Assembly (NCBI RefSeq): GCF_003762835.1
Contig: NZ_RJWA01000013.1
Coordinates: forward strand, 1 to 64,000
Direction of reading: 5' to 3'
Length of the DNA: 64,000 nt
Origin: Micromonospora sp. HM5-17
Lineage (GTDB): Bacteria > Actinomycetota > Actinomycetes > Mycobacteriales > Micromonosporaceae
The notes below the pieces were generated by a model. That model made no database searches and was not told the origin of the DNA. It worked only from the letters and a program-made list of their open reading frames with translations. The position numbers were made by a program, and so were the translations under genes. Shown piece by piece: positions 5,694 through 45,793 of the stretch (within the stretch, counting starts at the first letter, position 1; every line of letters begins with the position of its first letter).

Positions 5694-6392
5694 CTACCGC
5701 GCGTCGAGGACGTCCACGACGAAGCGCAGCGGCCCGGCCGGTTGGCCCTGGCGCGGGTTCTGGCCGTACGCCAGGTCGGTCGGGATGTCGAGCTGGACCC
5801 GGCTGCCGACCTTGACCCCGACCAGCCCCTGATCCCAGCCGGGAATGACGTCGCCGACGCCGATCCGGAACCGCGCGGGCTGACCGCTACGCCAGGAGGA
5901 GTCGAACTCCTCGCCGCTACCGTAATAAGCGCCGACATAGTTCACCACGATGGTCTGACCGCGGCGCACCTCCGGCCCGGTCCCCTCGATCAGCGTGGTG
6001 ACCTCGAGCGTGCTCAGCTCCCCGCGACCAGCCTCGACGACCGGCCGCTCGGACAGCCGCGGGTCGAGAGAGGCGCCGGGGGTCGGGGTGTTCCCGGCCG
6101 GTGTCGGGGCGGGTACGGTCGGCGCGGCGCTGGGCGTCGCGGCCGGGGTGCCGGCCGCCGCCGGCGTCGGCTCCGACCGGTCGTCGCGGTCGTCGCCGAG
6201 CACGATGAGCGCGGCGAACCCCAACCCGACCAGTACGGCCCCGGCGGTGGCGCCGGCCCGACGCTGCCGGCGTGCCCGGATCGCCGCCGCGCGTGCCGCG
6301 GCCGCCTCGGCGGCGGCCCGCCGCTCCTGCTTGGTCGGCCGCCGCTGGCTCGTCGACCCCGGCTGTTCGGTGGCCTGGACCCGATCACTCAT
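5694..6392 (-). CDS. Membrane-anchored FKBP-type peptidyl-prolyl isomerase
   Basis: Accelerates cis-trans isomerisation at prolines, probably outside the membrane where it may help fold secreted proteins. The 232 residues comprise a basic N-terminus, one transmembrane helix at about 48-66 (VLVGLGFAALIVLG), a Pro/Ala/Thr-rich linker to about 115, and an FKBP domain from about 130. The FKBP core motifs VVNYVGAYY, FDSSW, GVGDVIPGWDQGLVG and LAYG are present. The ATG at 6392 is preferred because upstream codons are Arg/Pro-rich noise; GAGGAG lies about 11 bases upstream. It could instead be processed as a secreted protein. Confidence 0.9.
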   Translation of the reverse strand: MSDRVQATEQPGSTSQRRPTKQERRAAAEAAAARAAAIRARRQRRAGATAGAVLVGLGFAALIVLGDDRDDRSEPTPAAAGTPAATPSAAPTVPAPTPAGNTPTPGASLDPRLSERPVVEAGRGELSTLEVTTLIEGTGPEVRRGQTIVVNYVGAYYGSGEEFDSSWRSGQPARFRIGVGDVIPGWDQGLVGVKVGSRVQLDIPTDLAYGQNPRQGQPAGPLRFVVDVLDAR

Positions 6393-6605
6393 CTGATCTC
6401 GGACTCCTCGGTGGATCGTGGGAGTAGGCGGGACGGTCGCCCATCGAAGGGCTTTGCACACCGTACCCGCGTCGGCCCGGTCCGGTCCTGGCCGGTGGTT
6501 CCCCGTCCGGTGGCCGAGCCGCCGGCCCCGCCCACGCCCGGCCGGAGGGCGGTCGGGGCCATCCCCGTGCCCACCGGGGCGGCGAACGGCGGGAGCCACA
6601 GAACG

Positions 6606-6642
6606 GCCGCCGTGGATACCCGTGCGAGGCATCCACGGCGGC
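6606..6642. terminator. Hairpin terminator after the beta-glucosidase operon
   Basis: Twelve-base perfect arms (6606-6617 and 6631-6642) around a 13-base loop, 26 bases beyond the stop of the minus-strand beta-glucosidase gene. It should end the sugar-uptake transcript before the FKBP gene. Confidence 0.65.
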
Positions 6643-6667
6643 GTCCCAGGGACAACGCCGACTCCGG

Positions 6668-8038
6668 TCAGCGCGCCGACCGGTCGGCCAGCCCGCCGCG
6701 CCGCTGGTGCTCGCGGATCAACTCGGCGTAGCGCAGCCCGCTCGCCTTGATGGTGCGTCGCTGGGTGGCGTAGTCGACGTGGACCAGGCCGAACCGCTTG
6801 TCGTAGCCGTACGCCCACTCGAAGTTGTCCAGCAGGGACCAGACGAAGTAGCCGTCGATCGGCACGCCCCGGGCGGCCGCCGCCGCGCAGGCCTCGATGT
6901 GCTGTTCCAGGTAGGCGGTCCGCTCCTTGTCCTCGATCCCGCCCTCCGGGGTGACCTCGTCGTACCAGGCCGAGCCGCTCTCGGTGACCATGATCCGGGG
7001 CGGGGCGTACGTCTGGTGCACCGAGACCAGCAGTTCCTCCAGGCCCGACGGGTAGACCTCCCAGCCCATCGCCGTCTGCACCGCGCCCGGCACCGGAATC
7101 TGCCGGGCGTATGGCACCGGCCCGTCCGGATCGTCCACGATCAGCTGCCGGAAGTAGTAGTTCAGCCCGAGGAACTCGGTGGGTGTCGCGATCGTCTCCA
7201 GGTCACCGGCGCGGACCGGAGGCTCCTGGCCGTACGTGGCGATCATGTCGGCCGGGTAGCCCCGGCCGTACAGGGGATCCAGCCACCACCGGTTGACGTG
7301 CCCGTCCGCGCGGACCGCCGCCGCGACGTCCTCTGGCCGGTCACTGGCCGGCTGGCACGGACTGGGGTTCAGCACGATGCCGACCGCGGCGGGCCGCGAC
7401 GCCGCCGCCCGGATCGCCGCGGTGGCGAGGCCGTGCCCGAGCAGGACGTGGTGTGAGGTCGCGACCGCCCGGGTGAGGTCCCGCTCGCCGGGGGCCATCC
7501 TCCCCTCCAGGTGCCCGATCCAGGAGATGCAGAGCGGCTCGTTCACCGTCACCCAGTCCGTGACCCGGTCCCCCAGCCGGCCGGCGACCAGGGCGGCGTA
7601 CTCGGCGAACGCCTCGGCGGTGGCCCGCTCCGGCCAGCCGCCCCGATCCTGCAGCGCCTGTGGCAGGTCCCAGTGGTAGAGCGTGACCAGGGGTCGGATC
7701 TCCGCCGCCAGCAGCGCGTCGACCAGCCGGTCGTAGAAGGCGAGCCCGGCCGGATTGACCGTACCGGTCCCGTCCGGCACGATCCGCGGCCAGGCCACCG
7801 AGAACCGGTACGCCCCGACGCCGAGCCGGCGCATCAGCTCCACGTCCTCGGGCCACCGGTGGTAGTGGTCGCAGGCCACGTCCCCGGTGTCGCCGTTGTC
7901 GACGGCGCCGGGCACCCGGCAGAAGGTGTCCCAGATGGACGGCTTGCGGCCGTCCTCGGCGACGGCACCCTCGATCTGGTACGCCGCGGTGGCGACGCCC
8001 CAGGTGAAGTTGGGCGGCAACTTGGACAGGTCCGACAC
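6668..8038 (-). CDS. Beta-glucosidase, GH1 family
   Basis: Retaining intracellular glycosidase that releases glucose from beta-glucosides such as cellobiose. The 456 residues form a single TIM barrel of normal GH1 length with no signal peptide. The acid/base is Glu167 in TVNEP and the nucleophile is Glu353 in MVTESGSAW; the N-terminal [14 protein letters not shown] block is diagnostic. It is the last gene of an importer operon on the minus strand (lipoprotein, two permeases, enzyme), so it probably acts on the imported sugar. The preceding gap is 152 bases without a clear independent promoter. Confidence 0.95.
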
Positions 8039-42670: not shown

Positions 42671-43522
42671 TCAGAAGAGGGTCAGGGGCTCGACCGGAGC
42701 CGGCTCGGGCAGTGCCGCGAGGTCGGGCACCCGGGCCCGGACGTCGTCGTGGAAGCGGCGGGCGAGCACGGGTGCCTCGGCGTTGTCCGGCGTGTGGATG
42801 AACACGGTCGGCGAGCGACCCTCACACAGCCACCCGGCGACCACCTCGATCCAGGGCTGCCAGCCCTCGATCGTCCGCGCGGGGTCGTCGCGGCCGAGGT
42901 ACCGGACGATCGGCCGGTCGGTCAGCGCGACCGCCCGCAGCGGCAACCGCGGCTTCCTGGTCCAGGCCTCCCGTTCGGCGTCGCTGGTCGGCGGGCTGCG
43001 GAAGAACGCCGTCGTGTCGAACGGGACCCACTCCGCGGTCGCCGTGGCGAGGACTCCCTCGAGCAGCCGCGCGGCCCGGGGATCCGTGAAGAACGCGGGG
43101 TGCCGGACTTCTACGGCGTACCGGTGGGATCCGGGCAGCCGGCGCAGAAAGCGGGCCAGCGCGGGCAGCTCGGCGGGGGTGAACGATCCCGGCATCTGGA
43201 TCCAGAGGGCGTGCGCCCGCGGACCGAGTGGCTCGATCGCGTCCAGGAAGGCCCGCAACGGCTCGTCGACGTCGGCGAGCCGGCGCTCGTGGGTGACGAG
43301 CTTCGGAAACTTGATCACGAACCGGAAGTCCGGATCGGTCTGGCGTGCCCAGGAGGCGACGGTGTCCCGGGACGGTGTCGCGTAGAAGGTGGTGTTGCCC
43401 TCGACCGCGTTGCACCACCCCGCGTAGGCCCGCAGACGTTCGTGCGCCGGTAGCGGGTGCGGCACCAGGCGCCCCTGCCAGGAACGGTGCGTCCACATCG
43501 CGCACCCCACGTGCAGACGCAT
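42671..43522 (-). CDS. DUF72 (YecE-family) TIM-barrel protein
   Basis: The protein has 283 residues. Family blocks: VGCAMWTHRSWQG (about 5-17), YAGWCNAVEGNTTFYATPS (about 32-50), DFRFVIKFPKLVTHERRL (about 64-80), LWIQMPGSF near 108 and the C-terminal FIHTPDNAEAPVLARRF (about 243-259). The biochemical function of the family is not established. The ATG at 43522 follows a GGAGGGG about ten bases upstream. The prfH stop is 110 bases upstream on the same strand, so it may share the rtcB-prfH transcript. Confidence 0.88.
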   Translation of the reverse strand: MRLHVGCAMWTHRSWQGRLVPHPLPAHERLRAYAGWCNAVEGNTTFYATPSRDTVASWARQTDPDFRFVIKFPKLVTHERRLADVDEPLRAFLDAIEPLGPRAHALWIQMPGSFTPAELPALARFLRRLPGSHRYAVEVRHPAFFTDPRAARLLEGVLATATAEWVPFDTTAFFRSPPTSDAEREAWTRKPRLPLRAVALTDRPIVRYLGRDDPARTIEGWQPWIEVVAGWLCEGRSPTVFIHTPDNAEAPVLARRFHDDVRARVPDLAALPEPAPVEPLTLF

Positions 43523-43632: not shown

Positions 43633-44286
43633 CTACCCCGACCGGGCCGCACCGGGCCCGAGCCCCGGTCGTTCGACCCGGACGGGATCGCCGCGGACAA
43701 GATCGTCGTGGACCCGCCAACGGGCGGTCGCCGCGGCCCGCCTCGCGATCTGGTCGTTCCGCTCGAGCCGCTGTCGCAGCAGCTCCAGCGCGAGGCGACG
43801 GTTCTGGCTGAACCGCCGTTCGGCGTCGACCACGACGACGATCCCCGAGGGGCGGTGCGTCGCCCGGACGGCGGTGCTGACCTTGTTCCGGTGCTGTCCG
43901 CCGGGTCCCCCGGTCCGGCACGGGACGATCTCGACGTCCGCCTCGTCGAATCCGCTGCGTGGCGGGTCGACCTGGCACGGCCGGGCGACGACGTACCAGT
44001 TCTTGCGGCCGGCGCGCGCCCGGTAGGGGCTGGGTGCCTGCCAGCACAGTGTCCCGGTCCACGAGCTCACGAACTCCTCGGCGCCGGCGCCGGAGATCCC
44101 CAGCAGGACCGAGCGGTAGGTGCCCGGCCGGTCGCCGGGAACGGTCTGGACCCGGCGGGTCCTGATCCCCCGCCGGCCGGCGTCGGCCTCCAGCCGGCGC
44201 ACCAGCTGCGCGACGGCCCAGGCGCACTCCCGGGGGCCACGCCCGGCCGAGACGAGCAGGTGACGCTCGCCGCCGGTCACGCTCAC
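43633..44286 (-). CDS. prfH: Release-factor homologue PrfH
   Basis: Release-factor-like peptidyl-tRNA hydrolase that frees nascent chains from ribosomes with damaged 16S rRNA, preparing them for repair by RtcB. The 217 residues carry the catalytic GGQ at 129-131 (GGPGGQHRNKVSTAV) and the following ATHRPSGIVV block. The stop-codon-recognition domain of RF1/RF2 is replaced by a short N-terminal domain (about 1-110, with AQLVRRLEADA and RSVLLGISG). The GTG at 44286 overlaps the rtcB stop (GTGA). That pairing makes the PrfH identity firm. Confidence 0.92.
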   Translation of the reverse strand: MSVTGGERHLLVSAGRGPRECAWAVAQLVRRLEADAGRRGIRTRRVQTVPGDRPGTYRSVLLGISGAGAEEFVSSWTGTLCWQAPSPYRARAGRKNWYVVARPCQVDPPRSGFDEADVEIVPCRTGGPGGQHRNKVSTAVRATHRPSGIVVVVDAERRFSQNRRLALELLRQRLERNDQIARRAAATARWRVHDDLVRGDPVRVERPGLGPGAARSG

Positions 44287-45497
44287 GACCGCCCCCGGCT
44301 CCGGCGGCGTGCCGGAGCCTCCCGCCGGCCGGTACCGCCGGAGCCGGCCCCGGCGCGCTCGGCCGTCTTGTAGGTGACGAGCGGGACCGTCGAGGCGACC
44401 GGGGTGGCCAGACCGTGGTCGGTGAGGTCGGCGATCACCTGTTCGATCCGCTTGTACGCCATGGGCGCCTCCTCGAACAGCAGCTGGCGCTCGCCGCACA
44501 CCACGATCGAGCCGAGCGGCGTCCGCCGCAGCTCCTCGACCGTGTGCTTGGCCCGGCCCCGGCGCAGGGCGTCGGCGCGGGACATCTTGCGGCCGGCACC
44601 GTGGGCGACCGAGAAGTTGGCCTCCGGCCCGGCGTGGGCGGCCACCAGGTAGGAACACGTCCCCCGGGTTCCGGCGACGAGGACGTCACCGCCATCCCCG
44701 GGTGCCGCACCCTTGCGGTGCAGGTACCTCCCGTCGCGGATCTCGACCAGGTTGTGGCACCGGTCAACGACCGGCTCGGTGGGCTCGGCCCCGAGCGCGT
44801 GTAGCACCCGGGCGGCGATCAGCCGCCGGTTGAGCGAACCCCAGCGCACGGCGGCGTCGTGTCTGGCCAGGTACGCCGCGGGGTCGGCGGCCGGGCCGGC
44901 GCCGTACCGGTCGGTGTGCTCCCGCAGGATGCGTTCGCCCAGGCCCCGGGAGCCGCTGTGCACGATGAGAACGACGTCCCGGGCGGCGAGTCCGAGCCGG
45001 GCCGCGTGGCCGGGGTCGAGGACGCTCTGGATCCTCGCCAGCTCCACGAAGTGGTTGCCCCGGCCCACCGTCCCCAGCCCGTCGGTGTGGCCGGCGGGGA
45101 TGTCGCCGTCCACCACGGCCCAGGCCGGGTCGTCGGCGTCCCGCTCGGGGTCCAGGGCCCGGTCGAGGTCCGGGAACCGGGCGGCGAGCTGCTCGGGTAC
45201 GACGCGTTTGAGCGCGACCGGAAACACGGCGATACCACAGCCGATGTCGGACCCCACGAGGTGCGGGTACAGCACGGTCGACGCCATGGCGGCGCCGATG
45301 GGCGCCCCCTTGCCGGGGTGCAGGTCCGGCATGGCGGCGACGTGGATCATCCCGTCGAGGGCCGCCACCTGGTGGCACTGCGCGACGGCGTCGGACTCGA
45401 TCCAGCTACGGGCGGAGGCAAAGATGGTGACGGTGGCCGATCCGGTGGTGGGGACGGCCCGGGGCAGGAACGCCTGCCCAGAGTGTTGCTGCGACAA
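44283..45497 (-). CDS. rtcB: RNA-splicing ligase RtcB (PrfH-associated type)
   Basis: GTP- and Mn-dependent ligase joining 2',3'-cyclic-phosphate (or 3'-phosphate) and 5'-OH RNA ends. The 404 residues show MPDLHPGKGAPIGAAM (about 56-71), GSDIGCGI with the metal Cys at about 87, GTVGRGNHF (about 142-150), HSGSRGLG and the guanylylated His299 in AHGAGRKMSR. The C-terminal 25 residues are a basic tail. The likely start is TTG at 45497, with GGAAAG about seven bases upstream; homology begins by ATVTIFASARSW (about 21). Coupled with prfH, it should rejoin 16S rRNA cut by nucleases. Confidence 0.93.
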   Translation of the reverse strand: MSQQHSGQAFLPRAVPTTGSATVTIFASARSWIESDAVAQCHQVAALDGMIHVAAMPDLHPGKGAPIGAAMASTVLYPHLVGSDIGCGIAVFPVALKRVVPEQLAARFPDLDRALDPERDADDPAWAVVDGDIPAGHTDGLGTVGRGNHFVELARIQSVLDPGHAARLGLAARDVVLIVHSGSRGLGERILREHTDRYGAGPAADPAAYLARHDAAVRWGSLNRRLIAARVLHALGAEPTEPVVDRCHNLVEIRDGRYLHRKGAAPGDGGDVLVAGTRGTCSYLVAAHAGPEANFSVAHGAGRKMSRADALRRGRAKHTVEELRRTPLGSIVVCGERQLLFEEAPMAYKRIEQVIADLTDHGLATPVASTVPLVTYKTAERAGAGSGGTGRREAPARRRSRGRS

Positions 45498-45793
45498 CGA
45501 CGCTCTTTCCGGTAGAGGGGTGGGGACGGACGGGTGCCACGGCTCACCCGGACGCGGATCGGCGCTGCCGGGGCCTCGGCTGGACTGGGATGTCGTCCGT
45601 CAGAACGTCATGGCCCCACCCTGGCCGCACCCGGGCCGGCACGGCAAGTGGTTTTCGGGCGGCGTACGCCGGGCCGAGGCGGCCGGACGCCGGTCCCGGT
45701 CGGTTTGTCGGGCGGCTTTGTGGGAACGGCCACCGCCATGGACGCGCGGAGGACGACGCGGGGTCGACGCGACCGGCACGACGGGGCGGACCG

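Follow-up and report, generated by a model that had tools for sequence, protein, structure and literature searches.

The rtcB2-prfH gene pair

The window, i.e. the whole stretch of 64,000 nucleotides from Micromonospora sp. HM5-17 that was analysed, carries on its minus strand the gene for an RtcB-family RNA ligase, rtcB2 (44283–45497; 404 amino acids, start codon TTG), the gene for release factor H, prfH (43633–44286; 217 amino acids, start codon GTG), and, exactly 110 bases further downstream on the same strand, a DUF72 gene (42671–43522; PF01904, 187 bits). Read from the sequence, rtcB (45497 to 44283) and prfH (44286 to 43633) share the four bases GTGA (44283–44286), a stop/start overlap suggestive of translational coupling, and RtcB contains the motif AHGAGR and PrfH a GGQ, here within GGQHRNK, all in agreement with an earlier sequence-only reading of the locus. 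Both proteins score above the NCBI family cut-offs, RtcB with 479 bits for NF007153 (cut-off 407) and 325.6 bits for the PrfH-linked RtcB family TIGR03073 (cut-off 271.8), PrfH with 192.4 bits for TIGR03072 (cut-off 166.65), confirming the pair as RtcB2-PrfH with a TIGR03073-type RtcB directly upstream of prfH. The start of rtcB at 45497 is supported by its relatives, as TTG is the start codon in 109 of 117 and is preceded by a conserved Shine-Dalgarno sequence. Neither a second RtcB nor an archease was found in the host assembly.

The Mn/GMP ligands of RtcB (D84, C87, N148, H149, H180, H248 and H299) are invariant among 17 relatives, and alignment to the structures 2epg and 4dwr showed the metal-binding and guanylylation residues to be intact. 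PrfH aligns to residues 136–296 of RF2, and its best matches in both sequence and fold are 9mor and 7sa4, in which PrfH was solved on damaged 70S ribosomes. The AlphaFold model comprises release-factor domains 2 and 3, and the statement of the sequence-only reading that PrfH has no stop-codon-reading domain is therefore inexact: domain 2 is kept and domain 1 is missing, as has been reported for the PrfH family (PMC9223846, PMC6514570). Among 116 aligned actinobacterial PrfH sequences both GGQ and the Arg of GGQ-x-R are present in all, and 114 read GGQHR; the solved PrfHs have a Val at the position of this Arg.

Rescue and religation by the enterobacterial pair, which had been put forward as established, are borne out by the E. 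coli homologues, which act on ribosomes cut by colicin E3 (PMC9223846). The RtcB2-PrfH pair of E. coli ATCC 25922 (PMC9223846; the RFH operon of Baranov 2006, PMC1586002) consists of proteins of the same two families in the same order, with the stop/start overlap, the GGQ and the RtcB active site also seen in the window, but its PrfH is about 38% identical and reads GGQHVNK instead of GGQHRNK. We regard the pair in the window as almost certainly belonging to the RtcB2-PrfH family, and as an ordinary member of this known module.

Distribution of the module

RF1 and RF2 score about 110 bits, and proteins with at least 150 bits were counted as true PrfH. By this measure PrfH is present in about 118 of 251 Micromonosporaceae genomes (about 47%). 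When 395 Actinomycetes genomes were sampled across the class, four reached PrfH-level scores, two from Micromonosporaceae and two from Microbispora species (Streptosporangiaceae), and the module was found in no family besides these two. A named search located it in Plantactinospora, with which the host of the window was grouped, in Micromonospora, in Actinoplanes and in seven genera of the Streptosporangiaceae. The record NZ_LT559118.1 (L170) is labelled Nonomuraea gerenzanensis plasmid I, is 11.85 Mb long and is evidently a chromosome.

About 50 distinct genomic sites are occupied by the module. In a tree of RtcB and PrfH (FastTree, modest support) 36 of the 37 loci labelled Streptosporangiaceae group in a single clade embedded among Micromonosporaceae loci, suggesting that the module passed between the two families once. 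The end of rtcB lies close to prfH in about 100 of the 110 relatives for which the distance was taken, the exception being a group of Actinoplanes (L055, L063, L067, L076, L079, L082, L091, L097, L110), where a spacer of about 200–800 bp separates the genes, so that the usual stop/start coupling is lost. We looked for an additional protein in this spacer and found no convincing ORF, no Rfam match and no convincing tRNA. In one Micromonospora locus (L131, G201; about 5990–7463) rtcB is interrupted by a 490-codon ORF whose product, judged by eye, resembles a group II intron reverse transcriptase, and prfH beyond it is intact.

A conserved three-codon ORF upstream of rtcB2

No feature of the locus is more informative than a conserved leader element, which the sequence-only reading had missed. 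In an alignment of 129 distinct actinobacterial leaders, i.e. the DNA upstream of rtcB, the block CATGACGT(A/T)CTGACGGAC, which reads ATG-ACG-TTC/TAC-TGA, is much more conserved than its flanks. In the window it forms a mini-ORF of the leaderless type, ATG ACG TTC TGA (Met-Thr-Phe-stop; 45600–45611, minus strand), about 115 nt ahead of rtcB; between the mini-ORF ATG and the start of rtcB, the median over the leaders is 102 nt. Of the leaders, 117 match the block with no more than three mismatches and allow an rtcB start to be assigned, and in this set the ATG is kept in 115 and the stop in all 117 (TGA in 113, TAA in 4). The inner codons vary, codon 2 being mostly ACG, ATG or AGG and codon 3 TAC, TTC or CTC, with an invariant G as third base of codon 2. 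Four leaders outside the set retain ATG-N6-stop (L073, ATG ACG TTC TAG; L105, ATG AAT CGC TGA; L109, ATG TAT CGC TGA; L249, ATG CTG ATC TGA), and about seven actinobacterial leaders have no recognisable element.

Sequence and column statistics over 118 leaders point to a sigma-70-like promoter directly before the mini-ORF, so that the conserved short ORF stands between the predicted promoter and rtcB. In the window a -10-like box, CAGGGT (45618–45623, minus strand), ends 6 nt before the ATG, and a -35-like box, TTGCCG (45642–45647, minus strand), lies 18 bp from the -10 box. Across the leaders the ATG follows the -10-like box after about 7 nt, and about 17 bp separate this box from a TTGCC -35 box. 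Because of this spacing, the transcript probably begins at or within one base of the mini-ORF AUG.

The host genome has a single exact copy of a 15-nt version of the leader motif, and a 17-nt version was found in 22 of 121 genomes of the family, at most once in each; the reversed controls gave no match in either search. At its roughly 50 genomic sites the module is accompanied by the motif but by no regulator gene, which fits a self-contained cis device. In a few of the 22 genomes with the exact 17-nt motif PrfH was not detected (e.g. G056:C2:422480-422496, G102:C1:5082157-5082173 and G111:C1:147343-147359), and there the motif could either precede different genes that have this leader or be what is left of a lost module.

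The block could also be read as an operator, with ATG and TGA being coincidental: a repressor would cover the transcription start by binding CATGACGTWCTGACGG, in which 8 bp separate two TGACG half-sites. Its overlap with the start site, as is the case for repressor sites, the invariant third base of codon 2 and the continuation of the conservation beyond the stop (CGGAC) would all fit such a site. However, Streptosporangiaceae disrupt the first half-site (TGATG, TGAGG) yet keep ATG and stop, stop codons are replaced by other stops only, and both the single exact copy per genome and the lack of a regulator gene travelling with the module speak against a repressor, so we consider an operator unlikely. 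Still less probable is a constitutive repair operon, in which the block would be a strong promoter with its initial transcribed region and would sense nothing. The conserved region does include both promoter boxes (-35 and -10) as well as the likely start site, but these boxes are far less conserved than the 17 nt that follow them, and an inducible leader has a precedent in Pseudomonas aeruginosa (PMC12057347).

Predicted pairing of the leader RNA

Downstream of the mini-ORF the leader contains further elements that are predicted to pair. The sequence GACGGAC (45595–45601, minus strand), which overlaps and follows the mini-ORF stop, is the 5' arm of a predicted helix, with GTCCGTC (45525–45531, minus strand), about 30 nt before the rtcB start, as its 3' arm. 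The rtcB Shine-Dalgarno sequence of the window, GGAAAGAG (45503–45510, minus strand), is, from conservation and folding, the predicted partner of the mini-ORF; in the 117 leaders a Shine-Dalgarno sequence GAAGNGAG is conserved at about -13 to -6. The minimum-energy fold of the window leader contains both pairings, mini-ORF:Shine-Dalgarno region and GACGGAC:GTCCGTC, and this leader folds better than 199 of 200 shuffled versions (z = -2.43).

Among the 46 leaders GACGGAC and its 3' arm are paired in 97% of cells with little covariation, and the pairing of the mini-ORF region with the downstream arms is position-specific, at 86% of cells as compared to 34–58% when the regions are slid against each other. 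The mini-ORF:Shine-Dalgarno pairs are formed in 78.8% of cells of the Micromonosporaceae alignment and in 97% of cells of the Streptosporangiaceae alignment. With the first 20 nt shuffled, an average of 2.8 pairs to the Shine-Dalgarno region is expected, as compared to 4.5 with the native sequence. Covariation of the pairs was not above that of shuffles in the Micromonosporaceae alignment and weakly above it in the Streptosporangiaceae alignment. In the predicted helices GACGG:CCGTC is near-invariant, with only scattered compensation (L119, L234, L075 and GAGGC:GCCTC in Actinoplanes). Codon 3 and the Shine-Dalgarno sequence are strongly associated in a cross-table (27 A-T and 43 T-A combinations among 105), an association that is not significant on the tree. 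The conserved pairing could reflect shared ancestry, and sequestration of the Shine-Dalgarno sequence by the mini-ORF region, as modelled here, is plausible rather than established.

Leader ORFs of rtcB2-prfH operons outside actinobacteria

Non-actinobacterial rtcB2-prfH operons were drawn from plasmid and viral collections. An ORF of 10–16 codons with a good Shine-Dalgarno sequence precedes rtcB2 in E. coli, Proteus, a Klebsiella IncC plasmid, Methylosinus, Tritonibacter, Rhizobium, Aureibacter and a contig of the viral collection. Such ORFs were counted in 8 of 14 lineages, as compared to 2.4 expected from shuffles (p = 2.7e-4). Shinella has a similar leader ORF with a Shine-Dalgarno sequence that by eye is weaker, and no leader ORF was found upstream of rtcB2 in Skermanella, Novosphingobium, L280 and L283. 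The Methylosinus leaders differ from one another by synonymous changes only, and the peptide stretch SFAGL(V/I)R is common to the leaders of Klebsiella and L278.

In E. coli (L257, 4746–4793) and Proteus (L265, 956–1003) the Shine-Dalgarno-led leader ORF has 15 codons, as opposed to the three codons of the leaderless mini-ORF in the window. By eye, the leaders of these two species look like an erm-type translational attenuator with four arms. In E. coli the leader Shine-Dalgarno sequence would pair with CTCTTTGC, GCAGAC with GTCTGC, and CCATTTCC with GGAATGG at the rtcB start; the arms of Proteus differ compensatorily (GCGGACA:TGTCCGC and CCAATC:GATTGG), although covariation could not be claimed from a mere two species. 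The minimum-energy folds of both leaders contain the first and the last of these pairings.

The conjugative Klebsiella IncC plasmid NC_021667 (L269) carries rtcB2-prfH next to sul1 with a 13-codon leader ORF of its own, and on the Shinella plasmids L267 and L276 the rtcB2-prfH pair is immediately preceded by a second gene of the RtcB family.

A putative translation-sensing leader for ribosome repair

We consider it probable that the window contains a rescue-and-repair operon, RtcB2-PrfH, gated by a leader that senses translation, and, on balance, lean towards the mini-ORF being a translated sensor. The selection on the mini-ORF argues against the latter as it appears to act at the nucleotide level, the third base of codon 2 being G throughout as at a protein-binding site. 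By homology, PrfH would enter the A site of ribosomes whose decoding centre is damaged and free the nascent peptide, and RtcB2 would re-seal the cut 16S rRNA. Judging from the promoter spacing, the mRNA would start at or within a base of the mini-ORF AUG. When free, the mini-ORF and the bases around its stop are predicted to pair with the region up to and including the rtcB Shine-Dalgarno sequence, which would damp translation. A damaged or drug-bound ribosome stalled on the mini-ORF might instead keep this segment single-stranded, by analogy to PA5471.1-armZ-prfH, leading to more RtcB2, and synthesis of PrfH would follow that of RtcB2 through translational coupling. We thus infer a self-sensing repair operon, in which stuck or damaged ribosomes may switch on their own repair.

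The closest precedent is found in P. aeruginosa, where armZ is an RtcB-like gene adjoining PA5470/prfH and is induced by ribosome stalling on the leader PA5471.1 under ribosome-targeting antibiotics, an arrangement called unique to MexXY by a 2025 review (PMC12057347, PMC13041342). Compared by description, PA5471.1-armZ-PA5470 and the window share an RtcB-like gene beside prfH with a short leader ORF ahead. PA5471.1, however, encodes a longer peptide and is a proposed transcription attenuator, whereas the ORF of the window has three codons, is apparently leaderless and is predicted to act by Shine-Dalgarno sequestration; moreover, ArmZ acts as MexZ anti-repressor. Leaderless short ORFs ahead of actinobacterial operons are also known from mycobacteria, where polycysteine ORFs control operons (Canestrari 2020, cited in PMC9031893); these sense cysteine by their codon content, whereas the type in the window keeps start, length and stop while its inner codons vary. 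The literature searched, which mostly excludes subscription papers, makes no mention of a leader for other rtcB2-prfH operons, and, as far as the accessible literature shows, the leaderless three-codon leader is new and apparently undescribed.

More tentatively, control through a leader ORF, exerted by stalled or damaged ribosomes, may be general to rtcB2-prfH operons, a proposal that we put forward with slightly more doubt than confidence. The actinobacterial form would then be reduced to a leaderless AUG-N6-stop that pairs with the Shine-Dalgarno region of rtcB. Cut ribosomes may still be able to initiate on leaderless mRNAs and would in this way induce their own repair. The PA5471.1-armZ leader would possibly be one case of a wider theme, and the three-codon element common to two actinomycete families, together with the longer leader ORFs in other phyla, bears on how repair genes might be switched on only when ribosomes break.

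Many hosts of the module are antibiotic producers, and therefore both ribosome-targeting drugs and ribotoxins could plausibly act as the signal. The sequence-only reading had taken the pair to imply exposure to competitors' ribotoxins; ribosome-targeting antibiotics are an equally good candidate. An E3-type toxin gene gave no match in the host, with the search control equally silent, and of 201 Micromonosporaceae genomes only two, both of which lack PrfH, contain the E3-type nuclease domain PF09000 (L255 and L256; short frames of 86 amino acids).

The DUF72 neighbour

Whether the DUF72 gene belongs to the unit, as had been suggested, was addressed by comparing prfH neighbourhoods. DUF72 is near-core, being present in 212 of 251 genomes (E ≤ 1e-20) regardless of prfH, and lies within about 8 kb of the module, always on the same strand, at 20 of 118 Micromonosporaceae loci. 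DUF72 is within 8.3 kb of the module on the same strand at 5 of about 50 sites versus 0.08 expected from random placement, a crude null since DUF72 and the module may favour the same variable regions; conserved co-occurrence was not found. In the module tree the linked loci belong to different clades, and none of the other low-copy families recurs this often on the same strand. Linkage is absent from all six further Plantactinospora genomes and from all Streptosporangiaceae module loci, and in genus g34 the module directly follows DUF72 in two species, one of which has no rtcB, and DUF72 occupies this site in relatives that lack the module as well. Near-core, mostly located elsewhere and unlinked in relatives, DUF72 is thus judged to lie outside the unit. 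A three-gene repair unit of DUF72, RtcB2 and PrfH, to which the same-strand proximity, its unmatched recurrence and its spread over clades could point, is hardly credible in view of the unlinked relatives, the genomes with DUF72 and no prfH, and the g34 site. The repeated proximity itself is a real oddity. At one locus (L044, G105) prfH occurs without rtcB and with DUF72 directly upstream, and its sister L036 retains the order DUF72-rtcB-prfH.
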